Positions 19,528 through 59,500 of a stretch of DNA of 64,000 bases are shown here, piece by piece. The stretch comes from Perkinsus olseni (lineage: Eukaryota; Perkinsozoa; Perkinsida; Perkinsidae). How positions within the stretch are numbered: position 1 is the first letter of the stretch; every line of letters begins with the position of its first letter. The stretch spans positions 1 to 64,000 of the forward strand of contig JABANP010000164.1 of the NCBI GenBank assembly GCA_013115135.1. The letters are read 5' to 3'. A program made the translations under genes and the position numbers. A model generated the notes under the pieces. The model saw only the letters and a program-made list of their open reading frames with translations. It was not told where the DNA came from and searched no databases.

Positions 19528-19779
19528 TCATAGAGCCAGCGGAACCATTGGACGCAGCCGTTCTACCTCGCCCTTCACTCCCCCGCTGAGTCGATCTACA
19601 TGAAATAGGAGCTGTGAAAGAGAACGCACAGGATACCGATGGTGGACCCAGGCGGGCACAGACAGCCCTTCCCATCGCCAACTCGAAACCAACAAAGTCA
19701 ATAGAGCAACTGTAATAACGAAAGAAACAGTCAACTTCAAGTGTAAACGATATATAACAGTAACAATGAAATCGATCAT
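19528..19779 (-). CDS. Possible single-pass membrane protein
   Basis: 83 residues from the ATG at 19777-19779. MIDFIVTVIYRLHLKLTVSF, then VITVALLTLLVSS, forms one long hydrophobic segment. A soluble tail (WVHHRYPVRSLSQLLFHVDR...) follows. It lies just past the NAR1 stop codon on the same strand. A 19-bp palindrome (AATCGATCA repeated inverted) overlaps its start. No family recognised; it could be a chance frame. Confidence 0.3.
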   Translation of the reverse strand: MIDFIVTVIYRLHLKLTVSFVITVALLTLLVSSWRWEGLSVPAWVHHRYPVRSLSQLLFHVDRLSGGVKGEVERLRPMVPLAL

Positions 19780-19793
19780 GTGATCGATTGTCC

Positions 19794-31600: not shown

Positions 31601-32159
31601 GGTGGAAACCAACTCTTTATCATCAGCCTTCATCAGGGCTAAATTGATGAGAACTCATGAGGAGGGACGCTGGCTCTTGAGTGATGCCGCGAAGACTATT
31701 CCTCACCACTCCATCGTCGCCGAGAGGTTGGAATCGCCACACCATCTGTCGAGTACTCTCACGTTTATTTCACCAATCGTCACTTCGACGAGTCCCAGCT
31801 GCTCTGAGGGCAGTGTCCTCAGCGGGCTCAGCCGGCATCACCGGTCACGCCAAGACGCTGCTGGCCCAATTCCTGAGGATTCCATCTCAATTCAAGAATA
31901 TTTTTCTCCGAGAGAAAAATTGCCTCAAAGCAGAGCGATATGACGTCATGCATCTCCCATTCCTAATCAGGTATGGTTATCTTGGAGACCTTTGACCCGC
32001 TGGATCCGACCGTATCGATCCTAGAATACTCCCTCACCCTGGTTGGCGCTGCGACCGGCAGTATATGCATGCGATGGACGAAGGATAACAATATCATGTA
32101 CATCGGCCGGAGTCGGCTCGTTGCGCAGCTCGCCCTCACCCAGCTGTGAGGTGCATCCG

Positions 32160-37980: not shown

Positions 37981-38080
37981 AGTTGCCTGCCAATAGAGTC
38001 CCTCAACTAGTGTACCGTACACTGTGTACGCAACCTCGGTCAATCAGCAAGCAATGGTGCATAGCATGATACAGCGTAGG

Positions 38081-40871: not shown

Positions 40872-41644
40872 GGAGCAGTAGGCTGACCGCTACAGTGTGG
40901 TGACCACCCACGCGACCATACATATACCGTCCACGTCACCCCACGACAATGCGATGTTATGATTGACTACCAAACACAGAGCTCCTCTGATAGGATAAGA
41001 GTCAAGTCGGAGAGATCCTCATCTTTCATGGAATCACGAATTCACTTCTAGTTTGCGCTTCTCCGTAGACCCGCATGATCTCCCCACTTCGTCCAATACC
41101 GGTATCCTTGTAGAATCGGTGAGAAGAGATGTACACACGGTGATTTCAAGGATGTTGGCATCGGGTCACTGCTACACGTTGTAACCTACGATGTTTGCCT
41201 ACAACAGATTTGCCTCTAGCAGAAGGTCCGGGCCTGGATACGCTCATCTTCCTCTCTTGACGTTCCATCTTCAGAGCCTGTAGTTCTTTACGAAGCTCGC
41301 CAATCTCACTCAGTAAAGCAATATTCTCCTGCAAGTCTCGTACTCTGATCAGCTGCCGGGCAAAGCTTCGTACTTCTGCAACCCGCAAGTTGCGGGCCGC
41401 AATTCTTCAGCTGTTTGTGATTGTGAATGCCAAAAACTCAACGGATCATGAGACCCAGCTACAAAGCAACCATCAGCTCGGAGACGAGGAGCCAAAGAGT
41501 AGTAACACGCAAACTGATCAGAAATGATTTTCTCTCGATTTCAAGAGACCTATTCAACCCACCCTCAGGACAACTACGGTGCCTTCATTCAGCTCACCAG
41601 TCGTATAATGTTCTAACTGCCTCGCAGACTCCCACAGGATACCC

Positions 41645-41680: not shown

Positions 41681-41958
41681 CAACTCCTGGCAACCTTTAT
41701 CGTCAGAGGTCTAGTATCGCCGTCATCCACTCGTTGTTGCTCCTCCCTCACTCCCTGACCGCATTACCTGAACCAGCCTTCGGCCGAGACAACGCTCACA
41801 GGAGTAACTAGCAAAGACAGCATTCAATGGCCGAGAGAGAGAATCAGCATTGGTAATCGTCCTACTACTGTCGCGAATCACCACCCTCCTTCTCACGCAG
41901 TTTCGAGAGATCCTGCTGCATCGCTTTCACCGCCGCAGATCCTTTTACCACTCATAAA

Positions 41959-41977
41959 CAGGTCAATCATTGACCTG
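41959..41977. repeat. Palindrome, 9+1+9
   Basis: CAGGTCAAT, centre C, ATTGACCTG. Perfect arms with a one-base centre. One of the palindrome swarm. Confidence 0.9.
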
Positions 41978-42360
41978 TCAATGATACCATACGGCCGTCC
42001 CTGCGGCCCGCTCGAAGCTTGGTGTATCCTCATACATGTACTTCACAAGAATAGAACCCTCCTTCTCTCTCAGGGAAGTACTCTAAACGGACTTTTCACA
42101 AACCGTCTGTGACGAATGTTTCCTATTCGCTATTCACGAAGATATTCGACTGACTTTGCAACCTTTGGAGCCGCCGAGAGGCTACCTTCCGTTCGCACTC
42201 TCGAATAAATAAGTTTGTGCATAACGTACTTACCGCTAAACCCACACTTCTTTGACTATCATTCTTCTCCTCTCGAAGCATCTCGTCCCTGAAGTAGCTG
42301 GCCTGGGGCGTTCGAGCGACAAACCGTTGCGAGATGGTAAGATACCTCTCAGGCACGGTT

Positions 42361-43104
42361 AGAGCTACTCTGGATCTTTAACGCGGAACTCTACTGATTC
42401 ACAAGATATTCGCCGGTGTGTCTCCTATCACTTCGTATGGATTTGATATCCATGGTAACCGCACCTCTTCTTCTGGTGCTGTAGGCCCCCCCGATCGCAC
42501 TTCCCTTTCTACTCTGCGATCGCCCCTGCGTGCTTTGAATCTTAGATCCACATAGCCACGCTTCCCAGTTCCCTACTAAGTCAGCGTCAGAAACGGCCTT
42601 CAGCACGGTGTGGCTCATTGATAGCAGGAGAGAAGCAGACCTGCTGGCCTCACGAATGACTATCTGGTATGATCCGAATTGAATGAGCTACCACAACGCA
42701 ACTGACGAAGCTCTTAGAGTAGCAGCACTCATACACATCGTCTACGACTTGCTAAGGTATCGTTACCTTGAGAAAACGCCAAAAGCGCATGCTGCCACTG
42801 GAGCACTGCAACCAAAAAGCCAACCCTCATGGGTTAACCCGGCCGATGGCATACATCACCAAAATGGCTTGGGAACGCGTATTCTGCTGTCGAGCTTGAT
42901 CGACTGCTGCTGGGAATTGGCAGCCCGCGCTTCAGCTAGTCGGGAAAGCTGAGCCGACTGAGACTGCAGCACACGTATGCCTAGTGAAGATAGTCGTCCG
43001 CTCATCATCATCAACCCAGTCCCACTTTGAAGAGTCGAACACCAGTGCCGTATCATAGGCCTTCCTCACACGTCCAGCATATATGCTCCGTGAACGGCGG
43101 GAAC
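42361..43104. other. Unassigned, between CFAP57 fragment and Kelch gene 1
   Basis: Minus-strand frames at about 42391-42618 and 42856-43056 may be further eroded CFAP57 exons, but I could not match them. Nothing else seen. Confidence 0.3.
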
Positions 43105-44366
43105 TCAAGTTGGAGTCACGCGGTAATAACGGGAGTGATTGACTAGGACTTTATCAGAGGATGAAGGCTCCTCATCCGGGTATGGACTGAAGATCTCAGC
43201 AAATCTTCTGAGCTCGACTAGGGATTCCGGCGACTCACAGGCAACCGAGTCGCTGTCATTATCTACAGTCATGAAGCCACCAACCAGGATGACACAGCAG
43301 CCTACACTGTAGGCCCTACAGTCACCGCTTTACAAGGAGACCTAGCCTGAGGCATCTCGGGTATAACCCTCGTAGAGGTCAACATGCTCACGCGTCCTGG
43401 GGTGGCGGCTTCCTGGAGCGGCACGAAGTACTGACTATCCAATGGCACCACTTCAGTGGTAGACACTTCTATCAATTCCCTATTGATGACAACATCACCT
43501 CCAAAGACACCAAAACAGCTTCTAGACTCATCCAGCCAAGCCACGCCGCATGATGACCGTCCCGCACTCAGTCGTACCGAAAGAACCGACCAACTGCAAG
43601 GAGTTGTCGTAGTGTCGAGAATGTAGATGAGGTCCGAGAGCTGTGGGGGGTATCGCCTCAAGACACCACCGACGATGAACAGTCGACCATTCTTCTCAAG
43701 TACTCTACCACCAGTCAAAGGACATGGCAGATGTATCCTCTCCTTTTCGTGCCTGATCCATTTGTTAGTATGCGTATCTAGAATTTCTACCTCGGATACC
43801 AATTCGCCCTTGAAAGTGCCTCCAATAGCATACAAGTACCTGTTCTCAACGAGGGCTAGACCATGCCCGAACCGAGGGACCTGCATGGTCGAGCGGAGCC
43901 ATATCCAGTCATTCAGCCATGGGTCGTAGACTTCTGCATGTGCCAGACATCGGTGTGAATGCTTTTGACAGCCACCAATGACGTATAGACGATCATCGAC
44001 ACACATCGCCGCTGCAACAATCCTTTTGCTGTTCATTCGTGGAGCTCTACACCACCGCTTAGAGTGATGATCGTACACGCTCACCGAGCTCAAAATGGAA
44101 TCTTCATCGCCGTCACAGCTCGAAAACCCGCCGCATACAAAAACGCAGTTCCTAACGGGCTCGTCATAGCAAAGGTGCGGCAAAATGTTTTCGCAAACGA
44201 CGTCCGGAGGGGTAGATGCGAAAGGGCAGGTTTCTGGGTCGTCGTACTTCGATGCCCGCAGTACTAGGGTTGCGATCAGATCTCCGTTGCGGTCCACCCA
44301 GCGGTGTTTCCGGAGAGCCGCTAGGTCCTTGCGTAGCGATAGAGATGTACGCAGGCGGTACTTCAT
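43105..44366 (-). pseudogene. Kelch-repeat protein gene 1, truncated by a palindromic insertion
   Basis: From the ATG at 44364-44366 the frame runs 354 residues to a TAG at 43302. It contains kelch blades with the GG...Y...W pattern: NCVFVCGGFSSCDGDEDS, RLYVIGGCQKHSHRCLAHAE, LYAIGGTFKGELVSEVEILD and RLFIVGGVLRRYPPQLSDL. A separate frame then continues directly (CCVILVGGFMTVDNDSDSVA) to a TGA at 43105, matching the next blade of Kelch gene 2 (VVVIGGD). The two frames rejoin if 14 bp forming a palindrome at 43300-43314 is discounted. So the coding sequence is probably broken, although a shorter protein could still be made. Kelch proteins form beta-propellers for protein binding. The blades at 43.39-43.90 kb are almost identical to gene 2. 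Confidence 0.75.
43300..43314. repeat. Palindromic insertion, 7+1+7, in Kelch gene 1
   Basis: GCCTACA, centre C, TGTAGGC. Compared with the open frame of the Kelch family this adds 14 bp, shifts the frame and creates an in-frame TAG. Confidence 0.75.
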
Positions 44367-45195
44367 AACAATAAAGTGGTTCCCAACTACGTAGGCGAGA
44401 ATAACCCCCCTTCCTCAAGCTGGAAGACCCCCCCCGACCTAAGACGCGTAAAGGTCATGCCTCGGATGCAATCGGCGAATTACCGATCAATCGGTCAATC
44501 ACGACACGTATGGTCCAGGGAGATCAGCTATGACTGAAGTTCAACAAACGATACAATTGAGATCACTGGAAGAACATTTTTCACCTACTTCACTAAGGTG
44601 GTAGGAAACGTGCGCACGTGATTAGCACACGTGTTGCTGAACCACTGGTTCAGAACCAGCCTAGACCTTGCTGCGTTGCAACCTATCCCAGAATGTAGAG
44701 ATCAGAACGCATCTTCAAAAAAGTCGCGAGCCATCGTCAGACTGGGGATCCTAGTGAAAATGCCACTGGTTCCGTTACGAACCTCCCGAACCGCAAGATG
44801 CGCTCGATCACGGTGGATCTATCTCGCGCGCCCGAAAATCTCTGCCCGACGTTATCCACAAGTCGTGGAGCTTTCTGTGAGATGCTGTGATGATCGGTAC
44901 TGGCGTTGAAGAAGATGCACGGCCGTATAGCACTTACCATTGCTTAATCGTAGGGGTTCTTTGTTACCCTATGATGAGTACGACATCGTCTGTATCCGAG
45001 GCAGCGTTGGGTCAAGTCGGGGGCTCGGCGGATAGGGATTCACAGTTTTCACATGGAATCAAAAGAATCGTTTGGGATTATCAGGGATAATTTATCACAT
45101 CACGGAGCGGAGCCAGCGACCGGAACCGTTCCGGCGGAACGTCGACACTACCGGTTCGGGAGGCCTCCCGAGGAGGCCATAAACTATGGCCCATA
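44367..45195. other. Unassigned, with one palindrome
   Basis: A minus-strand frame at about 44737-44940 (SQKAPRLVDNVGQRFSGARD) is weakly protein-like. An 8+1+8 palindrome (CTGAACCACTGGTTCAG) is at 44637-44653. No firm gene. Confidence 0.3.
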
Positions 45196-45199
45196 ATCA

Positions 45200-45445
45200 T
45201 CGACCGTTCTCCGGCCCACAAGCTCGCATCGGGAAGTGGCCGTTCGGGGACGACATATTGTAAGAGATACGGATCGCTGCGTTGGCACTTCGAATCTTCG
45301 TAGGTGTCACACTGATGGCACTAGTTGTGTAACCTTCCGAGCTATCCCATCAAATATGACAGATCCTATTGTCAGTAAGCTACTGGGTGTATATCAGCCA
45401 TTAAGGAGTTGTAGCCCTGCGAGGAATGAGACGACGAAATAAAAA
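45200..45445 (+). pseudogene. Duplicated two-exon fragment, copy A
   Basis: Paralogous to 53505-53815. Reading IIIDRS..., GKWPFGDDIL, then a GT-AG intron of about 46 nt (GTAAGAG...TTCGTAG), then CHTDGTSCVTFRAIPSNMTD. The intron position and phase match copy B, which supports spliced coding ancestry. After SNMTDP this copy loses similarity in frame, so it appears decayed. Family unknown. Confidence 0.45.
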
Positions 45446-45559
45446 GTTATCTACGTGTGAGGCTACTCGCTGCCAGCTGGACCTTGCAAGTTCCCAGGAG
45501 AGCCTCATGAGGAAGCACTCTCTGCCGAACTCATAGTTCAACTGATATGGCTCGGTTTT

Positions 45560-45711
45560 GTAATGTTTATATCGCTGATCCTATCTTGCTCCGACAAGAA
45601 GCTACGCTGAAGCTAAGCTAAGTAGCGGATGATAAGAAACAACAGATGAAAGATTGGATTCCAAATGGCAAAACCCGGGTGTTGTGTTCTCAATCAGTCA
45701 GTCTCTCCACA
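45560..45711 (+). repeat. 152-bp direct repeat, copy 1
   Basis: Identical to 46152-46303 except for one base (CCCGGGTG versus CCCGCGTG). The copies begin GTAATGTTTATATCGCTGAT and end GTCAGTCTCTCCACA, with starts 592 bp apart. Not coding as far as I can see. Confidence 0.85.
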
Positions 45712-46151
45712 TGGTGCACCGTCCGGGAAACAAGCGGACCGGGTGTGAGACTGCGCTGATTGGAGAATAAGCACAGACCGTGGTCAGAGCCGATGGATCC
45801 GGATGCCTGCTCGTGAGGAGCACGCTGCCGATTTAGGCGCGGAGCCTTTGACCTTCAGACACTGCATGAGAATTGCAGTTAGTCACCTCTAGATGTCGCA
45901 TGAGACTTGCTGTCGGCCTCGGTGATGGCCTCAGAGTAGCAGGTCGTTCCGACTTGGCGCTGCCCGCGGACAGCAATGGTGCTCAGTGATTCTGCTTGTG
46001 ATGAGCAGCCGATTTGTGATGAGACGAGGCCGACCTTGGCAGCTAGTTTGCGGGGACTCCTGCCCGTTGGGCAGGTTGTGAGTTTAGGTACGAACTAGCC
46101 TTCCAGTATCTCTTACAAACAACCGCAACATAGGATCAGCTGGGGAGGCGT

Positions 46152-46303
46152 GTAATGTTTATATCGCTGATCCTATCTTGCTCCGACAAGAAGCTACGCT
46201 GAAGCTAAGCTAAGTAGCGGATGATAAGAAACAACAGATGAAAGATTGGATTCCAAATGGCAAAACCCGCGTGTTGTGTTCTCAATCAGTCAGTCTCTCC
46301 ACA
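46152..46303 (+). repeat. 152-bp direct repeat, copy 2
   Basis: Partner of 45560-45711. The near-identity indicates a recent duplication or conversion. Confidence 0.85.
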
Positions 46304-47500
46304 ATTTGCTACCCGCTGTCTCAATCTCAGGTTTCGAATCTTCTGCTACTGTAAATCACGGGGAGATCTACAATCTTCAGCTCCTCGGGGTGCGACAGAA
46401 GGGGGACGACCCCGGTCTAATAGGCCGGGCCTATGGTTGACTTCTTTATTCTCGCTCAGTCGCGGTAGCTGCTCAATTTACTTTCGAATAGCTGTTCAAC
46501 GGGCTTGTGTGAGCAGTCTCCCAAGAGTCCTGGGTGGCGCTATGGGGTGTGACATCACTAGTGTCGGGTAATGCACGTGGTTCCCGCGGGACCAGAATCA
46601 GCGTTCCGGGAACGCCGTTCCCCCCGGCACTGCTAGTTCGAGCTGTCTTATCCTGTCTAGGCATGCCCGCGTGTTTAGTAAGTGGTATTTCGTTGGCGTG
46701 TCGTCGACACGGTGTCGACGTTACAGTTACAGCCTCAGTGGCCGCCCATACTTGCTGAACGGGATAATTCTCAAAGTATTTCCCGCATCATGTGGCCCTA
46801 AATCTCTTGTCTCGATACGCTCCCACCAAGGGAGTCCTTCCACACTTTGGCCCCGCTTCAAATGGAGCGGGATCGTCCGGTTGCTACGGATGATGGAGAG
46901 TCCAGTAGTGGGTTACTTGATCATGATGTAAAGCTCGAGGTTCTAAGGCACACTCTGATGACGCCACACAGAGGACGTTAATAGCATATTGGTAGTATGG
47001 TGCCATTTTCTGGGCACAGGCTCTTGGAGGCTCGAACGGGGCTTACTGAGGCGTTGGAAATGCGGAGGGGCCTCATTACCACCGATATGGACTTTACAGT
47101 GGAGTGTTCTTCGTGAGCCTGGCTAACCGGGTATTGTCTTAGGATTTTGTGCTGATGCAGTGTCCGTATGGTGGCCTGAATCAGGCCGCCTGATCGGGCC
47201 AGCAGGCCAATTCGAGCAATTGATCGGGCTAATTTCGGGCAAGCGTGCTTCAACGCGGCCCTTCTTGACATCGTAATGAGAGAGACAGGTCCGAATTTCC
47301 CGTGGCCATGGTACTGAATATAGCACTCAGCTTCCTCAACGACTCACGGTAGTGTATTGAGAGCTGGGCGAACAAAATTTCGAGGTGAATATCTACGCTT
47401 CATAGAGTCTCTCGCCATTTTTAGTTGCTTCCTCTTCATTCATACTGTTGAACTCTCCGGTGGCATCATCTAGTCAGGCATTACGCGCGATGGAACACAC
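46304..47500. other. No supported gene; one palindrome
   Basis: Short frames on both strands show no coherent features. A 9+1+9 palindrome (CGTCGACACGGTGTCGACG) is at 46702-46720. Confidence 0.3.
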
Positions 47501-47551
47501 GGTCAAGACTCGCGACTCGCGAAGGCCCTTCGCGAGTCGCGAGTCTTGACC
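47501..47551. repeat. Perfect palindrome, 25+1+25
   Basis: The left arm begins GGTCAAGACTCGCGACTCGC and ends GAAGG, the centre is C at 47526, and the right arm is its exact reverse complement. It lies 50 bp upstream of the MITE and just before the presumed original 5' coding region of Kelch gene 2. Confidence 0.95.
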
Positions 47552-47601
47552 TTCGCCGAAGGGTCCGAGACCTTTCGGTGGACGGTGGAGGTCTTGAAAA
47601 G

Positions 47602-48087
47602 CAGAGGTCGGAAAAATCCTGTTCGAGGCATCTCGGTCTCGTCTCGACGTAGAGCTTGCGTTGTTCATTCTCGATCGTTGTGTCTCGGAGAGTTTGGCGG
47701 CGATCTCGATCCCGTTCTCGATTCTCGAAGGCGATGTGCTATCCATGCAACCTAGCTTGCATTTCGTTGAGAATTACTCGCCACCGAAGTCCAAAAAGAT
47801 CATTCTTTATCAAAGAGAACCGTTCACAGACGAAACTCCCGGATTTGGGGCTGTTCATGAGTTCCAGCGACGAAACTCTATCCCGGATGTTACAGTACCT
47901 CGATATCCGTTAATGACATGTCACATTCAACCCACAGTATGCAGGCAGATACGAGATTTTCGAGAACTCTGCCAAATCTCGTCTCGTTCTCGAGTCCTCA
48001 GAAATTTTCTCGATCTCGTCTCGGAACTCTTCGAGATCGAGACGAGAACGAGAATCTCGAGTTCTCGGGTCTCGATTCCGACCTCTG
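47602..48087. mobile_element. hAT-like MITE in the 5' region of Kelch gene 2
   Basis: 486 bp bounded by terminal inverted repeats CAGAGGTCGGAA and TTCCGACCTCTG and flanked by an exact 8-bp target duplication TTGAAAAG (47594-47601 and 48088-48095). CAG-initial repeats with an 8-bp duplication are diagnostic of the hAT superfamily. Internally it is made of CTCG/CGAG-rich inverted sequence and encodes no transposase, so it is a non-autonomous element. Confidence 0.85.
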
Positions 48088-49382
48088 TTGAAAAGCTTGC
48101 CCTTCTGATTTGGGCATCCGAGCGTTGCGATCCGCATGCCTATCCAATTGGATCGATGCCTCTGGGTGTAGTTCTCGGTCGTATTTCGTCGTATATAAAG
48201 CCTGTTGGAGGCTGTGTTTTCATGTGTGGTGGGCTCTCACGCGGTATGGGTTCACCTATGAGCACTGTCGAAGTGCGCTATCATCGACCTGAGAGCTGCT
48301 TCAAGGCAGCTGATCTGCAGAGACCGAGAGTCGCCGCAGCAATAATGCCTGTTGGGAAGTACTTTTACATTGTGGGCGGCTATCGGGTCCATCCAAGCAG
48401 GCCTTTGGGGTGTGTTGAGATTTATAGCCCCTGGCTCAATAAGTGGACACGGTTCGATTCAAGCATGCAGCTCCCTCGGTTCGGGCATGGCCTAGCCCTC
48501 GTTGAGAACAGGTACTTGTATGCTATTGGAGGCACTTCTAAAGATGAATTGGTATCCGAGGTAGAAATTCTAGATACGCATACTAACAAATGGATCAGGC
48601 ACGAAAAGAAGAGGATACATCTGCCACGTCCTTTGACTGGTGGTAGAGTACTCGAGAACAACGGTCGACTGTTCATCGTCGGTGGTGTCTTGAGGCGATA
48701 CCCCCCACAGCTCTCGGACCTCATCTACATTCTCGACACTACGACAACTCCTTGCAGTTGGTCGGTTCTTTCGGTACGACTGAGTGCGGGACGATCATCA
48801 TGCGGCGTGGCTTGGCTGGATGAGTCTAGAAGCTGTTTTGGTGTCTTTGGAGGTAATGCTGTCATCAATAGGGAATTGATAGAAGTGTCTACCACTGAAG
48901 TGGTGTCATTGGATAGTCAGTACTTCGTGCCGCTCCAGGAAGCCGCCACTCCTGGAACCGTGAGTAGAGCGGCCTTCACGGAGGTTATACCGGATATGCC
49001 TACAGCTAGAGCTGGTTGTTACGCAGTAAAGGTTGGCTCTCGGGTCGTCGTAATTGGTGGCGATCCGCCTTCAGCGGCTTTAAGATTTCACCTTCAGGAA
49101 GCTATGAATGCTGGCGAGTTACACAGGCCGGCCGAGAGTGCCCACAGTAATGCGTTCATCCTCGATATGTGTGAATGGACTTGGGCCAAGGAGGGATCCA
49201 TGTTTACTGGCCGGAGCACTGCCGCTATCTGCATTGGCTTTGCACCTCCGGTTCCTGCGGTAGAGGCCGGGCCACCAAACCCGGGCACTCTGAGTAATCC
49301 TGAGTCACCGGCTCATCCCGGGTTGGTGTTAGGACTGCTGGATGAGGTTGAGGACTGGCTGGGAATTGCAGCATCTTCATGA
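47661..49382 (+). CDS. Kelch-repeat protein gene 2
   Basis: The open frame is 573 codons, but its first 140 or so lie inside the hAT-like MITE and do not resemble the family. From about residue 145 (LALLIWASERCDPHAYPIGS) it aligns with Kelch gene 1. Blades include CVFMCGGLSRGMGSPMSTVE, YFYIVGGYRVHPSRPLGCVE, LYAIGGTSKDELVSEVEILD, RLFIVGGVLRRYPPQLSDL and VVVIGGDPPSAALRF. The C-terminus is proline-rich (PVPAVEAGPPNPGTLS). Upstream of the MITE a frame reading LSVDGGGLEK aligns with RWVDRNGDLIA of gene 1. So the original N-terminus was interrupted, and the insertion plus duplication (494 bp) is not a multiple of three. The gene may now start inside the MITE, splice it out, or be non-functional. 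Expected fold: beta-propeller for protein binding. Confidence 0.7.
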   Translation: MFILDRCVSESLAAISIPFSILEGDVLSMQPSLHFVENYSPPKSKKIILYQREPFTDETPGFGAVHEFQRRNSIPDVTVPRYPLMTCHIQPTVCRQIRDFRELCQISSRSRVLRNFLDLVSELFEIETRTRISSSRVSIPTSVEKLALLIWASERCDPHAYPIGSMPLGVVLGRISSYIKPVGGCVFMCGGLSRGMGSPMSTVEVRYHRPESCFKAADLQRPRVAAAIMPVGKYFYIVGGYRVHPSRPLGCVEIYSPWLNKWTRFDSSMQLPRFGHGLALVENRYLYAIGGTSKDELVSEVEILDTHTNKWIRHEKKRIHLPRPLTGGRVLENNGRLFIVGGVLRRYPPQLSDLIYILDTTTTPCSWSVLSVRLSAGRSSCGVAWLDESRSCFGVFGGNAVINRELIEVSTTEVVSLDSQYFVPLQEAATPGTVSRAAFTEVIPDMPTARAGCYAVKVGSRVVVIGGDPPSAALRFHLQEAMNAGELHRPAESAHSNAFILDMCEWTWAKEGSMFTGRSTAAICIGFAPPVPAVEAGPPNPGTLSNPESPAHPGLVLGLLDEVEDWLGIAASS

Positions 49383-50059
49383 TAGACTATCATTGATAGT
49401 CAGTGATGTAATTGACGTGTGTCTGAAATCACAGTGTTGTGTTGAAATTCCCATTCGAAGAGATGAGAGAACGACTATCGCTCAACAATAGTAGCGTATT
49501 TCGTCGTGTCCGAATGTGTTGTGATTGCTGATGACAATCTCGCTAATGATGATCCACCGCTCGATCTCTACTGAGAGTGAACGCAGCATCAGGCGCCAAG
49601 AAAGAAGTGGGCACTACGATAGAGCGGATTAAATTTCCCTTCGTTAGGGCCACTCCTTAATAAGCAGTTTGTTCGAGGTCAACTCGTTGGGCCGGTTTAC
49701 TCGGCGATGACGCTCGGCGCACAGGGGGACAGCAGCTTTGTGTGCGAGCTAGTGGGTTGTTCGGTTGAGAAGAGTTCGGAGCGAGTGAGATGCGTTTGCA
49801 TCGAGTTTTGTTTGATTTGGTCTTTTAAAGAACCTCCCGCCCACTCTGGCGATGTGGTGCGGCTGCCTCCCCTGTTGGGAAGGCGGCCCCGTCACATTGG
49901 CCGAGGACCCGCTCCTTGCGCAGTCCTCTGGCCCACGCCCCAATGCCGGGGAGGAAGGGAGCCGGGTAATGACCACCATCACGTTCAACTCCGGCGGTTT
50001 GCCCACCCGTGGCGGCGTCTGCAGCCTCATGCTGCGTGAGTCACGCACGCCTGCGGCGA
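49383..50059. other. No supported gene
   Basis: The 3' flank of Kelch gene 2. A frame at about 49749-50186 exists on the minus strand but is not convincing and overlaps the start of the CFAP57-like block. Confidence 0.3.
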
Positions 50060-50705
50060 CGTCGCTAGACGTGAGTCGCATAATGTGACCTATACGTATC
50101 GAACTCTTTGAGATTTTTATCAATCGTCTTGGCGATTCGGGCCAAGGCACACACAGTTCTCGGGATCTGGAGGAAGTCCTCATCACCCTTCAGCTCATCT
50201 TTGAGGATCTGCGACGGAAGACAAAGTAAAAACGGCCAAATATCGGAGAGAGGCTTCGGTTGAACCGAAGCCTTTCGACAAAGCCGACCAGAGCCTGTAG
50301 TCCGCTGAGGAGGCCTCATTAAATACTGCTCCAACTCGCGGCGACGCTCTTTGAGTTTGCATAATCTGACCTATAGGGGAAGCTCATAAACGGGGCGACA
50401 TTCAACCCTTCACTGCATGGTTAGCTCCACAAGTAGCCACCATCGGCCTCCGAACACAGACGCCCAAGCCCAGTGCCGCAGTGGCAGCGCGCAATCAACT
50501 TGACCGTGGTTCACATGAAACTTCGTTGCAGAGCATCCATTTCGCTGGCTGCTTCTCTGACCACGGGTGTCAAATCTGTACGAAATAGTGGGAAAAATCC
50601 CTGCGGGTAGGTTTTCATATGGGGGTATGCAAGAGACTACGGAGATTCCGAATATATATTAGTTTCTGTCTGGATCGTTCCGTATAAGGAGAAACGGCGA
50701 AATAT

Positions 50706-50751
50706 GAGTAGAAGCGGAGTACTTGTCATGACAAGTACTCCGCTTCTACTC
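50706..50751. repeat. Perfect palindrome, 23+23
   Basis: GAGTAGAAGCGGAGTACTTG TCA followed immediately by its reverse complement, with no spacer. The right arm is homologous to 62295-62320 in the intact CFAP57 copy, and the left arm has no counterpart there. Confidence 0.95.
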
Positions 50752-50900
50752 TGCTTCCTTTGAGAGGTACTTCCCTCAGGCCTAACAGCAGAGACCTCTC
50801 CTCGGCTGAGTTGAGCAGGCATCGGAGCCGAAACATGAGAAGGGCGACACCTGACCTGGATCATCGGAGTTTTTTCCTGAGCATCCCGACTATACCGTCA

Positions 50901-50915
50901 GTGACGGTCCGTCAC
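50901..50915. repeat. Palindromic insertion, 7+1+7, in the CFAP57 pseudogene
   Basis: GTGACGG, centre T, CCGTCAC. The intact copy reads straight from ACCGTCA to CACTAACCGTGAG at about 62829, so roughly 22 bp including this palindrome is extra here. Confidence 0.8.
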
Positions 50916-51050
50916 GGAGACGGACTAACCGTGAGAAGGCCCCCCTTCGACCATGGTATCATAATGCGTTACGCACCGTTAGAGGGGGTCGACGACCAGA
51001 GATTGCCTGACCGACAACACATATCATGAAGATAGCAGCTGATAGTTTTT

Positions 51051-51810
51051 ACAGCTTTTCATACAATTTGAGGCACAAATTTTGAGCCTACTCGAGAGCG
51101 ATCAAAGTTCGACGTCCATAGAACTTCTATGATAGAAGCATCATGGATGTTGCCAGTTCTGCTTTTCTCTGTTTTGGGCCAGAAGGAGACGCTTGACACG
51201 CTCCTACTACGTAAACCCCGTACACGCGACCCAGACTTCATCCTATCGAAATCCGCCCAGCGCCCTTCGTGGGCTCTGTAGAACCAGCCTCCGTCTTCAG
51301 GGAGATACCTCACAGAGGGCACAACTGGCATGGCCAGTTTGAGTCAAACTTTGACTGTCAAAGCCTTCGAATATCGATTGCAGTCTTCGTGAACGGGTTC
51401 TGTGCCAAGCCTCTGGCCTACGCACCCACCGAATTTGATTAAGTATCGCGAAGCTCATCATCCTCTTCTAAGAAGAGGAAGGGAGAAGGAAGAAGAGTCT
51501 TCTTCCTTCTCCCGAGAATTGACGGTCAATTATTGACAAAACTCGACGGTCTTGACTCGGAAAAGCCATCGTGCGATGACATGCGCAAACACGAAAGAGT
51601 CATGTTCAGGCTTTAGAGCCGTGAGCCAACACCATCAGCCTTCGCAGCTCTGCTGCATATCCAGTCGGCCGAGAGATTTTGCGGCAGTAGCGCTACTATA
51701 TCGATAGATGCAATATATGATTGTATTGACATTGTCAACTTGACAATACAGACTTGATATCACGGGTACCAAGGAAGTTATCTCAACGTTGGTACCTCAA
51801 CGTCGGCACT
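51051..51810. other. Palindrome-rich spacer
   Basis: A minus-strand frame (about 51059-51331, RAHEGRWADFDRMKSG) is of unknown status. Perfect palindromes at 51461-51479 (9+1+9), 51481-51513 (16+1+16, GGGAGAAGGAAGAAGA arm) and 51732-51748 (8+1+8). Confidence 0.5.
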
Positions 51811-52909
51811 TCAACAATACTCTGCGCCCCATAAGCCTAAAATAGTACTTCGGGACTGGAAATCCCCACCTATCAAGCCCATTATTATATCACCACCATC
51901 AAAAAGAGTTACTCTTGAAGGTTGAAGGGAAGGCCAGTCGAACGTCAAACGGCGGCTAGTATCAAGAATGCTAAGCTGAGAAGTCAGAGCTATCATGCTG
52001 AGCTTCCGTGTGAATCTGTCCGCGTTAAGCACGTAAAATGAGCCATCGCAGCTTGACAGCTCAGGAAACGGAGATAGCGGTATCTCAATGACATGCTCGA
52101 ACAACAACATTTGTTGAGACCACACTTGAATGCAGTGATCGCCAACGATGTCGAACAGAATTGCAATCAACTCCACACCATTCACGTGTTGTACTTCGAA
52201 GTGTAGGATATCCCACCCATCGGCGAGCACCACTTCTATCTCGCCGGTCCGGGTGGAGAATTTACCGGAAAAACAATCTCGCAACAAGGCTGAGTCGATC
52301 GCATAGAGCCGGGCTCCGTGATCGGCGGTGCCTTTAAAGTAGACGTACGATCCTGAATAGACCATACTCTCCCCGAGCCCTCTGGCATCGTCGCCCACGC
52401 CTAGTTCGAACATACCGTTCAGAGTGGCGATACCGTTCACTCCCACTGTAAACTTGCAGATATAATGGCGACTAAATACAACGAATATCTCGTTGTTCGG
52501 GGGATTGGTACACAAACCAATGGGGTCTCCAATCACTCGACAGATAGGCAAACATATCCGGAATGAGGATATCAGTGCTCGAGGGGCCTCCTCAGGCGGA
52601 AATGTGTGCTCTAATAGAAAGTGGGGCCTTGCATTCAGAACGACGTGACAGTCATGTACACACTCAGGGCCCGATGCCTTCACACCAGTACACCAGCGCA
52701 CTGGTTGACGACCACTTAGCTATGCCGCGGTTACGGGGTTGTAGTCTTCCTAGAGTGTGAGAGCCGATCTTCCTATAAACATGGGCCCGCGGAACGTAAT
52801 CCCATGTCAGTCGCACCAGTTCCGATGGAAGTTCTAGTCGAAAAGTCGCAGCCATGTAATATATGAGGCGTCGCTTCACCCAACGGGTAAAGCGCGATTG
52901 ATCCGACAT
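51811..52909 (-). CDS. Propeller-like protein with short F-box-like N-terminus
   Basis: Two exons. The first starts at the ATG at 52907-52909 (MSDQSRFTRWVKRRLIYYMA) and contains FRLELPSELVRLTWDYVP, reminiscent of an F-box helix pair. A 34-nt GT-AG intron (GTAACCGC...CAACCAG) joins it in phase 1 to the long second exon. Exon 2 (295 codons) has repeated beta-strand-like units with IVFSRHYICKFTV, VYFKGTADHGARLYAIDSA, LIAILFDIVGDHCIQVWSQ and SFYVLNADRFTRKLSMIALT, as in a beta-propeller. No exact family recognised. Substrate-adaptor function is inference. Reading frame intact. Confidence 0.55.
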
Positions 52910-53077
52910 AAGAAGGCTGGAGAAGGAGATAACGCTGAACAGCTAACCCATCTGGTACAATATAAACGGGAGCTTTTGCCCGCGACCCTCATTAGTATTT
53001 CAATTTGAGCATTGAATGCGCCAGTGCGTTTACAAACAGTGAGTGTCATTCACTTCCCTGCCAGGAAAGGAAATTCC

Positions 53078-53094
53078 TGAGGGAAGTTCCCTCA
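53078..53094. repeat. Palindrome, 8+1+8
   Basis: TGAGGGAA, centre G, TTCCCTCA. Close by are AGGAAATTCCT (5+1+5) and a longer imperfect hairpin at about 53168-53204 (GTGCGGAGAAGTCTTC arm). Confidence 0.85.
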
Positions 53095-53232
53095 TCACTT
53101 ATTCGTACGATACGAACCGTACTCATTCACTTGATCCCACGTAAATCTTGCACAGTGAGTGTACAAGTGCGGAGAAGTCTTCCGAGAAGACTCTTCCCCG
53201 CACTTCCGCCCAACGGTCAGTTAGTAACTGCT

Positions 53233-53297
53233 CAACGAAAATTCTGTTGAGAACACTGCAGCCTGAGGCTGCAGTGTTCTCAACAGAATTTTCGTTG
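53233..53297. repeat. Perfect palindrome, 32+1+32
   Basis: The left arm begins CAACGAAAATTCTGTTGAGA and ends CAGCCT. The centre is G at 53265, and all 32 base pairs of the right arm are complementary. Longest in the window. Confidence 0.97.
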
Positions 53298-53504
53298 CCA
53301 GCCTCCAAGGCGAAGCGACACGTGTTTCTATCCTGCGCTGATCAACGACATATCGATCACTGCGGCGGGCGAGAGCATTAATAAAGGCGAGCGCACGTGA
53401 GAGGGGTTCCGTCCGCATCATACACGGCGTCAGATCCAACCAATTCAATCGGTTAGGATTTTCGCATGACGGAGTCGAACCAGCAAGCGAAGCTGCGAAA
53501 GACG

Positions 53505-53815
53505 ATAATCATTGACCGTTCTCGCGTGCCTCAAGCTGGCAAGCATTCTCCCAACGTGAAGTGGCTCTTCGGAGACGGCCTTCTGTAGGAAATGCACATC
53601 ACCGTGTCACCGCTTTGGATCTTCGTAGATGTCACACTGATGGTGCTGGCTGTGTAACGGTGGATGCTATTCCGTCTAATATGACAGACTCTACTGCGTG
53701 TGTACTAGCTATTAGGGCGCTGTATGCCTGCAAGAAACGAGAAGGCGTGCTACGAAGTCATCTACGAGTTAGACTACTACCAACCCAGCTGCAACTCGTA
53801 AGTCTCGAGTAAAGT
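53505..53815 (+). CDS. Duplicated two-exon fragment, copy B
   Basis: Reads IIIDRSRVPQAGKHSPNVKW and LFGDGLL, then a 45-nt intron (GTAGGAAATG...CTTCGTAG), then CHTDGAGCVTVDAIPSNMTD. It continues STACVLAIRALYACKKREGV and LRSHLRVRLLP to a donor-like GTAAGT at about 53800. Better preserved than copy A at 45.2 kb. No start codon or later exon identified, and the family is unknown. It may be a working gene whose other exons I missed, or a fragment. Confidence 0.45.
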
Positions 53816-54553
53816 TTCGAGTCGGCCACCTGAAGCGGCCCACTTCCTCAGCCTCAATTTCAGGTGACGTCCCTAATGAAGGACAGCGATATCGGGTCTC
53901 TTCAGCTCTTCAGGGAGCACGAACAGGAGGACTCAAGTATATGGTTAACGTCGGCGAAGCCGAGTCGCGGTAGTTTGCGTATGACTGACTAATTCCCTGA
54001 GGCGACGCCCAACCTCGTAGCTTCATGCTTAGCGTATACTTGAAGATGGGATCACACTCATTAGCCAAATCGGCACCGGTCTCTTGAGTTGAGGGAGTTC
54101 GACAACGCATGTCAATCTCATCGGTGGTTGAGGCGGGCTCGTGCGCACTGATGCACGCTTCATTTTTGCGGCAGGCCTTAAAGAATGAATTCAATTCCGC
54201 GAATAAGGCACACAATTTCATGATTAAGGGAGTCAATTTCGCCGATAAGGACATCAATGTCGGGGATTAACTTCAGGAACCCCCGGAATCTTCCCGCTGC
54301 GATTATCAGCTTGCCACCACTGCGCGGCAGGGGACGACAGTATCTCACGGGATCCTGTACATGCAATTGAAAGGCTTGAACTTTGAGCCTTTAAATTTGA
54401 AAGCTTCTTATTCAAGAGCGCGGGGTCTAGGCTAGACCAGGCCAGAAGGTGTTACACATATCGTAACCTCGCTGGATGAACTCTCGCGTTACACGATCTG
54501 TGTAACACCTGGCAGTGCGTTGAAAAAGAATGACCTCATTAACATAGGATTTC
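53816..54553. other. Unassigned, with an imperfect hairpin
   Basis: Minus-strand frames at about 53910-54366 are weakly protein-like (DIDVLIGEIDSLNHEIV). AGGTGTTACACATATCGTAAC (54447-54467) is inverted imperfectly at about 54490-54510. Confidence 0.35.
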
Positions 54554-54948
54554 CCGCCAATTTGCTGATGTCTCAACTCACTAATGTGATGATATCCTCG
54601 ACCCCCATATAGGCTACGGCAACCCTATCCGCCAATTTGCTGATGTCTCAACTCGCTAATGTGATGATATCCTCGACCCCCATATAGGCTACGGCAACCC
54701 TATCCGCCAATTTGCTGATGTCTCAACTCGCTAATGTGATGATATCATCCTCGACCCCCATATAGGCAACGGCAACCCTATCCGCCAATTTGCTGATGTC
54801 TCAACTCACTAATGTGATGATATCATCCTCGACCCCCATATAGGCAACGGCAACCCTATCCGCCAATTTGCTGATGTCTCAACTCACTAATGTGATGATA
54901 TCATCCTCGACCCCCATATAGGCTACGGCAACGGCCCTATCCGCCAAA
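54554..54948. repeat. 75/78-bp satellite, about 5 units
   Basis: Units start CCGCCAATTTGCTGATGTCT at 54554, 54629, 54704, 54782 and 54860, and a partial unit follows near 54940. The first two intervals are 75 bp and the next two 78 bp. The difference is one extra ATC in GATATC(ATC)CTCGACCCC. Units are almost identical, implying recent expansion. Confidence 0.95.
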
Positions 54949-55031
54949 TAGGCTTCTGTATGGTACAGTTATGCTCGTCTCCCTTCACAACAAACGCGAA
55001 GCTTCGTGCACGATATCATCGCCTAAGTTAG

Positions 55032-55096
55032 GACCATCAGTTCTGCATACAGCAAGATTAGGCTGCCTAATCTTACCGTATGCAGAACGGATGGTC
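55032..55096. repeat. Imperfect palindrome, about 32+1+32
   Basis: GACCATCAGTTCTGCATAC, AGC, AAGATTAGGC, centre T at 55064, then the near-complement ending GCAGAACGGATGGTC. Only a few arm mismatches. It looks like an older version of the perfect palindromes nearby. Confidence 0.85.
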
Positions 55097-55599
55097 GCAC
55101 GACAGTCTCTTGGACACGCTTCGAGATATTAATACAGGCGGGTCCATACACAGGGTACTGAGAGGTCGATCAGTATAACTTATACTGTATAAGTCTTACA
55201 CTTGAGAATGCTCGGGGATAGGTCCGCCCCGACTTGCTCGAATTCGTCGTTGGCGAATCGTCAGTGTCAGGGACAGCAACCAGACAGTGGCCTGAGCTTG
55301 TTGCCAACTACTAGATCTAACTGCAGCCCGCCGCTCGAGCGGCGGCACCCGCACCGAGGTTGCCAACGGTCTGCTTGAAAGATGTGTAACGAAGTGCGTT
55401 AAACGAACTGATACTACTGGTCAAGGTTACTTTATGCAAGCCGCTTAGAAACGATCCAGAACTAGTTAAGCAAGACAGGTTCCCGTACAGGTGCGGCACC
55501 TCACTGAGGTGACCTCAGGTACCCACTCTACCAAGTCGAAGCGCCAATAGCCCTTATGCAGCCCGAAAAGATGAGGATTTAGTCATCATCTGCAGAGGA

Positions 55600-56080
55600 G
55601 TAGAGTCAGTGCACTAGAGTGGGTAGGGAGTTTGCGGCCGGGTGTCGCCTACTCGCCAGTGGTCTTAGCAATGGCAACGCCAGTAGCATTATGCCACAGC
55701 CGGCCCACAGTCCTGGGAGCACAGAGCCATCCGAGCAGATCACCGCAATCGAAGACCCAGCCGGAGCGCGCCGAGCAATTACAACGTTACAGTCATCCGT
55801 GATCATGCGCGCTAGCTCTGATATCCGTAATTTCTGTGGTTTTTGGACCTTTCGATCCGGTGATCACAAAACTCCTGCCGTGGTGACCATGTCATGGTCC
55901 CCATTCGCTATCACTGCCAGTGATAGCGAATGTGATTCACTGACAGTGACAGCAGATTGGCAACAAACATTGTCGTCACCGACAGTGATCCACTGTCGGG
56001 CTGCTCCTTCGGGCCTGTTACTAGTGGCATTGAGGACGTATTTAATGGTGCAGCGGGTGAGCGCGACACGCGTATGACAC
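55600..56080 (-). pseudogene. 5' fragment of the coiled-coil gene
   Basis: CGGGCTGCTCC(T/C)TCG(G/A)GCCTGTT and flanking sequence at 55995-56050 match 40810-40860, which encodes TGSREQPDS at the start of the intact coiled-coil gene. Here the corresponding residues read TGPKEQPDS. Stops and palindromes interrupt it and nothing after the first exon is preserved. It sits directly downstream of the intact CFAP57, mirroring the layout at 38-42 kb. Confidence 0.6.
55903..55931. repeat. Perfect palindrome, 14+1+14
   Basis: ATTCGCTATCACTG, centre C, CAGTGATAGCGAAT. A smaller one with a 3-base spacer, CCGACAGTG ATC CACTGTCGG, is at 55979-55999. Confidence 0.95.
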
Positions 56081-56485
56081 GCGGCGTGTCGACAGACGGA
56101 GTGGCACATGGTCAGCCTCCACATAAGCCTCAAGTCTCGAGGCCCGTAAGGACTGCAGATCGAGGAAACTACTCAATCACGTCGTTCGAGCAAAGCATAC
56201 CACCCTGTCCGGCAGGGCCTGCCGCTGTGGAATGAGAGTCTTATTTTACAGCGGCAGGGTCTTAGTATAAGACGAGTCGTCTCAGACGACTGGGCCCGAT
56301 CTAGAGTGAGTACCTTGGACCACCTACAAAACTGCTACCGAGTGCCCGACAGTCCCAGCTTCAGCGGAGGAAAACGATCTTGAAAACCTGGATGGCGAGG
56401 GACAAAAGAAAGGCATTCTCCCACGAAGATGTGTTAACAACCCAATACTGAGCTCCTCGGCTAGGATAACAATCACGTCGGAGGG

Positions 56486-56500
56486 ATCCTCAATGAGGAT
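56486..56500. repeat. Palindromic insertion, 7+1+7, in the 3' flank of CFAP57
   Basis: ATCCTCA, centre A, TGAGGAT. The paralogous stretch at about 41015 reads GATCCTCATCTTTCATGG without it, so about 14 bp is extra here. Confidence 0.85.
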
Positions 56501-56510
56501 GTCTCATCTT

Positions 56511-59500
56511 TCATGGTAGCTTAGATTCACCACTAGTTTGCGCTTCTTCGTAGTTCCGTATGATCTCCTCCCTGCCTCTAATTTTCTCACGTAGTTCCGC
56601 TATGGTTCTCCTGTTCTGTTCAATCTCTGCAGCACGCCCAGAGGCCTTCTTCGCCACATCGGGCGGTCTTCTCCCAGCTGAAATAGTAAACCCGAAGATA
56701 CAAACGGTCACTTTGGCGGGAGTCGGTATCGCGAGCCGCGGTTCGCAGGCAGTTCCCGCCGGGCTCACCACAACTCCGTCAATAGAATAAAATTTATAGC
56801 GTCACGCTATTAGCGTGAACGGATGTCACAACCAGTATGCTACGGCGTAGCAGCTACGCAGATCATACATGAAGTCATGAAAGAATATATAAGGCTATTT
56901 CCTCCTTCTGAGGGGCGAGATATCGCTCGCACAGGCCCCCGTGCCACGGGGCCCGTGGTACCCGCAGCTTTGGCTCTAGCAAAAGGTCCGGGCCTGGATA
57001 CGCTCATCTTCCTCTCCTGACGTTCCGTCTTCAGAGCCTGTAGTTCCTTACGAAGCTCGCCAATCTCACTCAGTAGACCAATATTCTCCTGCAAGTGTTG
57101 TACTCCGTCCAGCTGCCGGGCAAATGCTCACCCCCATTATCCGAGAGTTATCCTTCCGACGAGCCTCTGCATCTTTCTGCAGCTTCGTCCGCAGCTTATT
57201 CACTTTCGCTTCGAGATACCCCCTCTGCTGCTCATACTCCTGTAGTGAAGAGCAGTCCAGCACGCACCAAATTCTTCAAGGGCCTGGGTTCCCCGCTTCG
57301 CAGTGCGTTTCTCATGGGCTTTTTCCTGGTTGATACGTTACCAAATTACTACATCGCGGATTTCCTCGCCAAGTGCATCAATATCTTTCTTTGTAGGTTC
57401 CTGCTCATCCGGTTCTTCTTCTTCATCCTCCTCTTTTTTCTCCGCCGCCTCCTCATCATCATCAGGTAGTTCCGCGTATTTCTTCGCCATGGCTACGAAA
57501 CTCTCTCTGAGCTTCTCGGGGTCCTGAGCGATTCTGTTACTGCTTGCCGATTATTTCTAGTCGGAACATGTGCGAGTCCAGCGACGAGCGTGTGACGCCC
57601 ACGAGCTCGCGCTAGCGTGGGGGAGCACGAGGATCCCCTACGCCTAGCACCAGGATCCCCACTACCAATATGTGCTGCGTGGTATGATAGAGGTCCGTCT
57701 TGAAGGCCCTCGATACACGGCGCAAGTCTGACAGCCGCTGCCTGTTCTTAACCACCTCACGCTGCAGCTCCTTCTGCTTCCCCCTCATTTGCTTGATATC
57801 ATCCATTAAATGTTTATTCTGTTTGTGATGTCTGCCACACCGGATGGACGAGGCAGTTCCCAGCCGCAACCCCCAACTAACTCTTCAAGATCCCGATCCA
57901 TATCAGAGATCTGTTTCTTCATCTCCGCTATGTCCCCTTCTTTCGGCCCAACTTGCGCCTTGAGCTCCTTGATCTTGTAGTCCATAATCTGACGCCCACG
58001 AGCGTCGGGCAATCGGAAGATCCTTCAAAATACCAAAAATCTTCTTCTTACGTATTTGAACTTCTCCAGCTCCTGATTCTGTTTCTTGAGATCGTATATT
58101 TTCTGTTCCTTCTCACCGATAACCTTGTCCTGTTCTTTAATGTTCTTCAAGCTCTTCTCCCGCTCAGCCATCAACTCGTCTATCCTGTCTTGCTTCCTCC
58201 TGGCCTCCTCCTGTTGGCCTGCGTCGAAACACTCAACGTATCAGGAACCATAACCGCAACACAGTTCGCTCGACGCGAGATACCCCAGGAGGCCCCTTCC
58301 AGGGTCACCTCTTATCTCCTCTTCTTTCTTATGCATCTGTTTCCTCAAGTCTTCATGGTGCTTCTTATGTATACCAGCCTCCCCTCTCAGCTTAACTTTG
58401 TCGTCTCTCTCATAAGACAGCAGCTGCTCGTATCTAAAAATGTTCGCAACACGTGATCAGCACCGGCTCCAGAGCGACTACACAGCGGATTGTCATCGCA
58501 AGGCATGGAGACAGTAAGCTATATAGTAGAATATAGTAGTAAGCACGGCAAAAAGGTCGCTTTCCTGCATCACGGATGGTAGGCTCGAAAGATCAACCGT
58601 TAGTATGTCGCAACTTTGTTCTCGAGACTACGCCATGCGATAGAAGAACAAAGCATCAGCCTGCCTGGTTTTAAGCACACGAACATTTCTCGGATTCCAA
58701 GTTCAAGCTAGCCCAAGCTTTGCACACCTACTGAGCCTTCATATCAGTCAGCTCTCCTACCGCATCCTGTTCCAATTGCTTCACGGTCTCACTGTGAACC
58801 TACAATGTTCCCATCCGGTGAGAGCTGAGAGCTTCCGATAACCTTTATCGCCAAGGCTTTCTCGTCATCCACCCGTTGCTTATGCAGGCGATCCCTCGCT
58901 TCTTGCTCCTGATACCTGAACAATCAACCTCGGCAAGGCAGCTCTTGCTAGAAGAACCACTACAGCAAAAGTGCAATAACATCGGATGGCGGAGTGAAAT
59001 ATGGCCTACGACCATCTTACTGCTGTCGCAACTCGGCAACCTTATTCTCGTGCATGTCCAAGAGGCTCTGATGCATCTGCTTCCATTGCCGCCGATCCTC
59101 GTGCCGCTGCTGCGCTAGTTGCTGACACCTACCAGCCGCGCACGACCCTCAGGAATTATCAAGATCCACACGTCTCGCTGCAAAGTGGCCACTACCGCCT
59201 CTCTGAGGGACGGATTTTTCAGTACCGTCCCTTCGATACCAAATAGTTACTCACAACCCGAAACGTATTCGATATTCCGAATAGTTTACTTCGTAACTTG
59301 AGCCACTATCTTCTCTTGGTAGGCAATCTCCTGCTCCTGCAGCTCGCATTTCTGCGTCTCCAGCAGGTCTCTGATTTTCCGCTCGTACTCTGCAGTGGAG
59401 CGGTGCGTCTAGGTAGGACCCAGGTCCAGCCACTCACCTCCTTGAACGTCGTCTTTCTCTTCTCGAAGCATCTCGTATCTACAAAGACCGACTGGCTGCT

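Follow-up and report, generated by a model that had tools for sequence, protein, structure and literature searches.

Palindromic 22-nt units in the genome of Perkinsus olseni as probable scars of excised hAT transposons

Introduction

The first 64,000 nucleotides (nt) of contig JABANP010000164.1 from the Perkinsus olseni assembly GCA_013115135.1 carry a swarm of long palindromes, most of them with a single unpaired base at the centre. This stretch is referred to below as the window; the contig measures 102 kb, and the genome 61.5 Mb in 968 contigs. What kind of process could write inverted copies with such a constant geometry into unrelated sequences? A sequence-only reading of the window had proposed a mutational process, such as hairpin-primed fold-back synthesis or template switching at a replication fork, with a mobile hairpin family as the alternative. 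We find that most of the palindromes follow a rule centred on a 22-nt unit built from an 8-mer, and these units are likely scars of excised transposons of the hAT superfamily that had inserted with an 8-bp target duplication.

A 22-nt unit made of two palindromes

All 15 palindromes listed in the sequence-only reading are present in the window, with small corrections of coordinates. The one near 41959 has arms of 10+1+10 (41958–41978) and the one near 55903 has arms of 15+1+15 (55902–55932), each one base longer than first given, while the start of a third moves from 51732 to 51731. The imperfect 32+1+32 palindrome at 55032–55096 matches in 29 of its 32 pairs. The palindrome at 50706–50751 is 23+0+23 as described, and its centre is not one base. 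The preference for a one-base centre holds in the spacer distribution of the window: with arms of at least 7, there are 64 palindromes at spacer 1, compared to 6, 6 and 12 at spacers 0, 2 and 3. We refer to palindromes with a one-base centre (spacer 1) as odd palindromes, with the same minimum arm length unless another threshold is stated. The comparison with shuffled sequence that had been suggested leads to the same result, since five runs of a first-order Markov simulation of the window give 4.4 palindromes at spacer 1. What the palindromes have in common is geometry and not sequence, as the first reading had stated; they are not one repeat family, and a mobile hairpin family was rejected, as geometry alone is shared.

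To this window we added twenty 10-kb stretches, picked by contig number and not randomly, two of which lie on the window's own contig; the resulting survey sample comprises 21 sequences and 264 kb. The centres of the palindromes are not independently placed. Among successive centres of the window that are spaced by under 10 nt (arms of at least 6), 23 are separated by 7 nt, one by 6 and one by 9. The whole sample has 70 such pairs at 7 nt and one each at 3, 4, 6, 8 and 9. Overlapping pairs of palindromes with centres 7 nt apart therefore define a 22-nt unit, consisting of t1–t7, the reverse complement of T, and t2–t8, where T (t1–t8) is any 8-mer. The centre of a palindrome is the complement of t8 or t1, both in the units and in the long scars described below.

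Perfect units, in which all 14 pairs match, occur 56 times in the sample, of which 18 are in the window. When the same construction is applied to targets of 6, 7, 8, 9 and 10 nt, the counts are 2, 1, 56, 0 and 0, and all lengths from 9 to 14 give none. Five second-order Markov shuffles contain on average 0.4 units at length 6 and none from length 7 upward. The two units at length 6 thus compare with 0.4 in shuffles, and the 11 at length 5 with 5.0. Units with T of a length other than 8 were rejected on these near-shuffle or zero counts, and a chance origin was rejected as well, with simulated and shuffled counts far below those observed. Decayed units are also found, 32 positions scoring 13 of 14 pairs and 29 scoring 12, for which two shuffles give 0 and 0.5. 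Units scoring at least 12 contain 154 of the 226 odd palindromes in the sample.

The same spacing is evident from two further counts. A pattern of two T copies occurs 71 times at centre distance 7 and 2, 4, 5, 9, 8 and 2 times at distances 1 to 6, with a background of mostly about five at other distances. Direct repeats of 6-mers peak at a distance of 14, solely as the 22-nt unit predicts. The two-T pattern is also slightly raised at centre distances 8 (12) and 11 (14), for which we have no explanation.

The units are widespread and patchy. The first reading had noted few palindromes outside the 41–57 kb region, and the clustering is real, if partial: of the 42 window positions scoring at least 12/14 (two of which overlap a better-scoring neighbour), 32 start at 41–57 kb, eight below 41 kb and two above 57 kb. 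Beyond the window's contig, 18 contigs are represented by one ten-kb stretch each, and 13 of these stretches contain at least one perfect unit. The twenty stretches outside the window contain 38 perfect units, corresponding to about 11,700 per genome (bootstrap 4,000–22,700). Their density ranges from 15 in L028 and 9 in L013 to none in seven of the twenty stretches (L-numbers denote sequences beyond the window). Density between segments is higher at lower content of guanine plus cytosine (Spearman −0.45, p = 0.016) and unrelated to coverage by open reading frames (ORFs; Spearman 0.02). Perfect units are rarer than expected within ORFs of at least 120 residues (10 of 56 observed, 23.6 expected).

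Insert-free copies of scarred sites

We examined 16 units for a paralogous site without the insert; an already known paralogue was the reason for choosing the units of the window, L028 and L017. Such a site was found for 10 units, and insertion is directly seen at these ten sites. The copy holds exactly T in eight cases and is one base off in two. Four of the ten are located in the window: 56486..56507 (12/14 pairs, T=ATCCTCAT), which is empty at window 41015; 56796..56817 (perfect, T=ATAGCGTG), with a single T in another contig, C107; and 56838..56859 (perfect, T=TGCTACGC) and 56937..56958 (perfect, T=CCCCGTGG), both empty in C107. The others are L028 3475 and L028 3537 (two copies each), L029 434, L029 989, L017 2488 and L044 17. 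The alignment gaps at the empty sites are 14 nt; the one exception is 56796, with a net gap of 12 and two extra bases in the copy just downstream.

Among the other units tested, L029 140 has a copy in L032 that apparently bears the scar as well, and four more (L029 2684, 2843, 2976 and 3136) lie outside the region common to L029 and L032. A 14-nt gap also stands opposite a diverged site at L017 169, which was not among the 16. The unit at 56203..56224 (13/14 pairs) is present without a gap in the C107 copy. The scar at 56486 is likewise found in C107, at the homologous position and with identical mismatches, and the stretch that holds it is more similar between the two copies than the sequence on either side. 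The scar may therefore be older than the duplication, or conversion may have spread it; its shared mismatches on a second contig make a read artefact unlikely.

Long palindromes

In the long palindromes, T was read by taking the centre of the left palindrome as the complement of t8, with the other copy of T expected beyond it. Nine odd palindromes in the sample have arms of at least 12, and eight of them have the second copy of T on their other side, seven under the strict rule and one more (55917) with one mismatch. The longest of the window's regular cases, at 53233..53305, is a 32+1+32 palindrome (T=GCAGCCTC) directly followed by the complement of t1 (53298) and t2–t8 (53299–53305). At 47501..47563, a 25+1+25 palindrome gives T=GCGAAGGG (47519–47525 plus the complement of 47526), and the second copy has its own palindrome of six bases, with t2–t8 at 47557–47563. 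Both hairpins are kept in the long scar at 51461..51513, where the left palindrome (9+1+9, centre 51470) and the right one (16+1+16 from 51481, centre 51497) independently yield T=CTCTTCTT. The 15+1+15 scar at 55902..55943 (T=ATCACTGG) has its right copy at 55937–55943 with one mismatch, and the scar at 41958..41985 (left palindrome 10+1+10, T=GGTCAATG) has a right copy starting from t2 (41977–41983), without the complement of t1. Arms in the long scars of the window range from 9 to 32 nt.

Three further features are less regular. An 11+1+11 palindrome at 50251..50273 is read as a right-flank hairpin; its centre at 50262 is G where the paralogue near 61.97 kb has C, in agreement with the complement rule, and a second T copy was not found beside it. 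The decayed 32+1+32 scar with 29/32 pairs is also read as a right-flank hairpin (55020..55096, centre 55064); its left target copy, placed by eye near 55020–55026, contains mismatches. An insert at 50562..50751 starts with CACGGGTGTCAAA, which we take to resemble hAT ends, and is closed by the 23+0+23 palindrome; it is likely a damaged or one-sided event.

We also tested 71 palindromes outside units for a nearby T partner, which was exact in 10 cases and had one mismatch in 11; a control at randomly placed positions gave 0.4 and 4.7. A much larger inverted structure was observed in L022, a 1363-bp inverted duplication (3195–4557 and 4805–6166, 93% identity) whose centre spans 247 bp; four odd palindromes lie inside this centre or at its edge. 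A hairpin-capped end may have given rise to this larger structure.

Resident hAT elements and repair genes

The hAT dimerisation domain (PF05699) has at least 21 matches in the genome. Five hAT elements have terminal repeats and 8-bp duplications (GTCTGATG, GTCCGGAG, TTGAAAAG, TATATTTT and TAGTCTAA). One of these is a 486-bp hAT-like miniature inverted-repeat transposable element (MITE) within the window, on the plus strand at 47602–48087; its ends are CAGAGGTCGGAA and TTCCGACCTCTG, and its duplication TTGAAAAG occupies 47594–47601 and 48088–48095 (whole feature 47594..48095). L029 and L032 are hAT-bearing loci, and L029 itself has 22-nt scars, as if later elements struck earlier ones. The targets of the scars show a weak bias, whereby position 2 holds T or position 7 holds A in 43 of 112 (p=0.0006); this resembles the reported target preference of Hermes, nTnnnnAn (PMC10368747).

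Genes for the opening and joining of hairpins were searched for in the genome. There is one match to the DRMBL domain, which we take to represent the family of Pso2/SNM1/Artemis. A match to Mre11 is clear and partial, and carries one stop; that to Ku is weak and partial (28.3 bits). SAE2/CtIP gave no match in the genome, which is uninformative, as control genomes gave none either.

A possible course of excision and repair

Directly observed are the geometry, the constant 8-mer, the ten insertions, the second T next to the long palindromes and the resident hAT elements with their 8-bp duplications. From these we infer that a hAT transposase makes the cut, and that a nuclease, tails of 3' polarity and annealing complete the event, as follows. 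The transposase would nick one base outside the element and close each flank into a hairpin, the tip of which would therefore reach one base into the duplication. Each hairpin would then be opened by a host nuclease at least 8 bases from the tip, leaving a 3' tail that repeats the flank in inverted orientation. With the same 8-mer present in both flanks, the two tails, the reverse complement of T and T, would be fully complementary; they could anneal over the whole target, and trimming of the surplus tail and filling of the gaps would produce the 22-nt unit. Tails joined end to end instead would generate the long palindromes. In such a scar, the left arm would be centred on the complement of t8, followed by the right flank from the complement of t1 and t2–t8, sometimes with a palindrome of its own; the mirror-image arrangement would arise as well.

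The cutting proposed here is of a known kind, since hAT excision is characterised by a duplication of 8 bp, by flank hairpins with a tip one base in and by the retention of P (palindromic) nucleotides. The hairpins formed by a hAT-derived transposase are reported to lie mostly 1 nt from the end of the element (PMC4763223), and Ac/Ds footprints are described as palindromes centred on the complement of the element-adjacent base, with arms up to 20 nt in yeast (PMC5873905, citing Lazarow 2012). The novelty lies in the product of repair, in the length of the arms and in the scale. Classical short footprints were rejected as the main product, as centre distances 1–6 have no clear excess. Short footprints thus show no clear excess here, in contrast to those left by Ac/Ds in other hosts. 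An unusual mode of repair must then be at work, and we regard the shortfall as a difference in repair and not in cutting. Deep opening of the hairpins and annealing over the whole target would explain both the fixed product and the missing short footprints.

Several observations weigh against excision of hAT elements as the source of the palindromes. The same absence of a clear excess at centre distances 1–6 in 264 kb means that footprints with 2–7 palindromic (P) nucleotides are not evident; products with 1 nt and perfect excisions are invisible to this test. Outside any unit scoring at least 12/14 are 72 of the 226 odd palindromes, and 50 of the 71 non-unit palindromes have no T copy with at most one mismatch in the range searched. 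The control at random places does not fully match self-similarity near palindromes, and two of the ten cases with an exact partner (window 41968 and L028 682) are closely packed and less convincing. The palindrome at L011 9742 (arms 12) breaks the rule for long palindromes, and the one at 50706, with a spacer of 0, falls outside its strict form. Of the sites with paralogues, window 50894 has one of 74% identity that yields no clean empty site, and the C107 copy of the unit at 56269..56290 (13/14 pairs) differs by 8 nt and not 14. The scars far outnumber the hAT domains found, a count that is a lower bound and leaves MITEs uncounted. Finally, one search, confined to the right side of the window MITE, did not find the same locus filled in one copy and scarred in another.

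Alternative explanations

The first alternative is a variant compatible with hAT excision, in which the transposase itself opens the hairpins at its 8-bp integration stagger, and host repair does not set the 8. The exact 8 in the unit and the scarcity of footprints with short P additions would both follow from it. However, the arms of the window's long scars vary, and annealing with trimming gives a fixed 8 without a fixed cut. We thus consider this variant unlikely, with a small share of the probability left to it.

The same hairpin chemistry could also belong to another superfamily that duplicates 8 bp, such as MULE, Merlin or one not recognised. MULE transposase domains are present, with 38 matches in the genome, a further point against hAT elements as the source. 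As for Merlin, the IS1595-type transposase domain, presumably its nearest Pfam model, has no match in the genome, which is a weak point against Merlin and not decisive. Merlin elements are reported from the Alveolata in a source that mentions Perkinsus (PMC8101967). However, the duplications of the MULE element Muta1 are given as 8 or 9 bp (PMC5225508), and no unit with a 9-mer exists in the 264 kb; hAT elements with 8-bp duplications, on the other hand, are seen directly. Another superfamily as the source is therefore improbable. Only the T-length test bears on scars of MULE excision, for which no dedicated search was made.

A third explanation is the one favoured initially, template switching at a replication fork or fold-back synthesis, in which an inverted copy is made when the polymerase switches to the other strand and then returns. 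This would yield inverted copies with short centres, and variable arms up to 32 do occur. Switch lengths should be free, yet T is fixed at 8; since neither process predicts a fixed 8-mer, this counts against both. The lack of a clear excess at neighbouring centre distances and the second T beside eight of the nine palindromes with arms of at least 12 also disagree with template switching, which we regard as very unlikely. Of the mutational process first proposed, the hairpin intermediates stand and very probably take part, whereas fold-back synthesis or fork switching does not stand, given the fixed 8-mer; the responsible agent is likely transposon excision rather than replication. An artefact of assembly or chimeric reads is hardly conceivable, for although perfect long palindromes can arise in libraries, the 22-nt rule recurs on many contigs and grades into decayed units, and one decayed scar (56486) is identical on two contigs.

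Other scars and features of the window

The proposed hAT scars of the window include, besides those already located, the following perfect units: 11336..11357 (T=GTTGCTAC), 23663..23684 (ATCACGAG), 38009..38030 (AGTGTACG), 43300..43321 (GCCTACAG), 44638..44659 (TGAACCAG), 45120..45141 (CCGGAACG), 46601..46622 (GCGTTCCC), 46697..46718 (CGTGTCGA), 47173..47194 (GGCCTGAT), 49379..49400 (ATGATAGT), 50894..50915 (ACCGTCAC), 51117..51138 (CATAGAAG), 51342..51363 (AGTCAAAG), 55172..55193 (AGTATAAG) and 55497..55518 (CACCTCAG). Units with 13/14 pairs are located at 41382..41403, 46413..46434, 50026..50047, 51517..51538, 51725..51746 and 56069..56090. Those with 12/14 pairs are at 20629..20650, 31369..31390, 31799..31820, 45077..45098, 45176..45197, 51066..51087, 53177..53198, 55387..55408, 63861..63882 and 63944..63965, and at 23573..23594, 39754..39775 and 55878..55899, where the matching pairs divide as 5+7.

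Two of these units coincide with the ends of reading frames. The kelch-like ORFs at 43302–44414 (minus strand) and 47598–49382 (plus strand) are 91% alike over 600 bp; the former ends inside the unit at 43300..43321 and the latter inside that at 49379..49400, so excision scars may truncate members of this ORF family. The best named relatives of a kelch-like protein of the window are in Perkinsus chesapeaki, P. marinus and P. olseni (41–59% identity). The window also contains a 78-bp tandem repeat of 5.1 copies (54554–54947), the unit of which recurs on dozens of other contigs, and a 153-bp direct repeat, 99% identical (45559–45711 and 46151–46303).

Relation to known systems and implications

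Joints with long palindromes are known from V(D)J recombination. In coding joints of scid or Artemis-deficient mice, hairpins are opened far from the tip, resulting in long palindromic additions; Artemis opening is impaired in these mice and joining is rare. Unlike these joints, the scars here are abundant, and a DRMBL-domain gene is present. Template-switch mutations are short inverted copies, for which neither a fixed 8-mer nor a duplicated target is expected, in contrast to the Perkinsus units.

The closest resemblance in geometry is to Ac/Ds and TcBuster, for which a target duplication, flank hairpins and complement-centred palindromes are described (PMC5873905, PMC3499496, PMC1978519). 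The scars of this genome are like both in their target duplication, proposed flank hairpins and a centre that is the complement of the element-adjacent base. For Ac/Ds, palindromes of at least 3 nt are reported in 47% of yeast and 20–30% of Arabidopsis footprints, with at most 3 nt in Candida (PMC5873905). Ac/Ds thus leaves mostly short P nucleotides and varied products, whereas the commonest product here is the 22-nt unit with its full target, along with arms up to 32 nt and an estimated 10^4 or so scars in a single genome. In the alveolate Amoebophrya, introner elements are described with inverted and direct repeats genome-wide, the direct repeats being 3–5 nt long, and the element body stays (PMC7789003); in the present genome, by contrast, the scar alone remains. 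The footprint studies cited, as far as their accounts of excision extend, examined it in reporter assays. Our search of the open-access literature on Perkinsus transposable elements, hAT elements, palindromes, hairpins and footprints, and scid joints found no report of genome-wide scars of this kind, within the portions of those sources that were covered.

We lean, with some reserve, towards the view that the default repair of hairpin-capped breaks in this lineage differs from that reported for Ac/Ds in plants and yeasts, with deep opening and rejoining over the whole target. The genome would then be a ledger of about 10,000 departures, well above the number of elements still resident, and nearly every departure would have left a datable 14-bp mark. 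Where they fall in genes, 14-nt insertions shift reading frames, and unrecognised scars could be mistaken for introns, indels or repeats. If the explanation by hAT excision is true, thousands of footprints would be legible by geometry alone, and the identity of the element would not be needed. Departures of transposons could then be dated and counted against residents, and hairpin opening and end joining in an alveolate would become readable from the genome.

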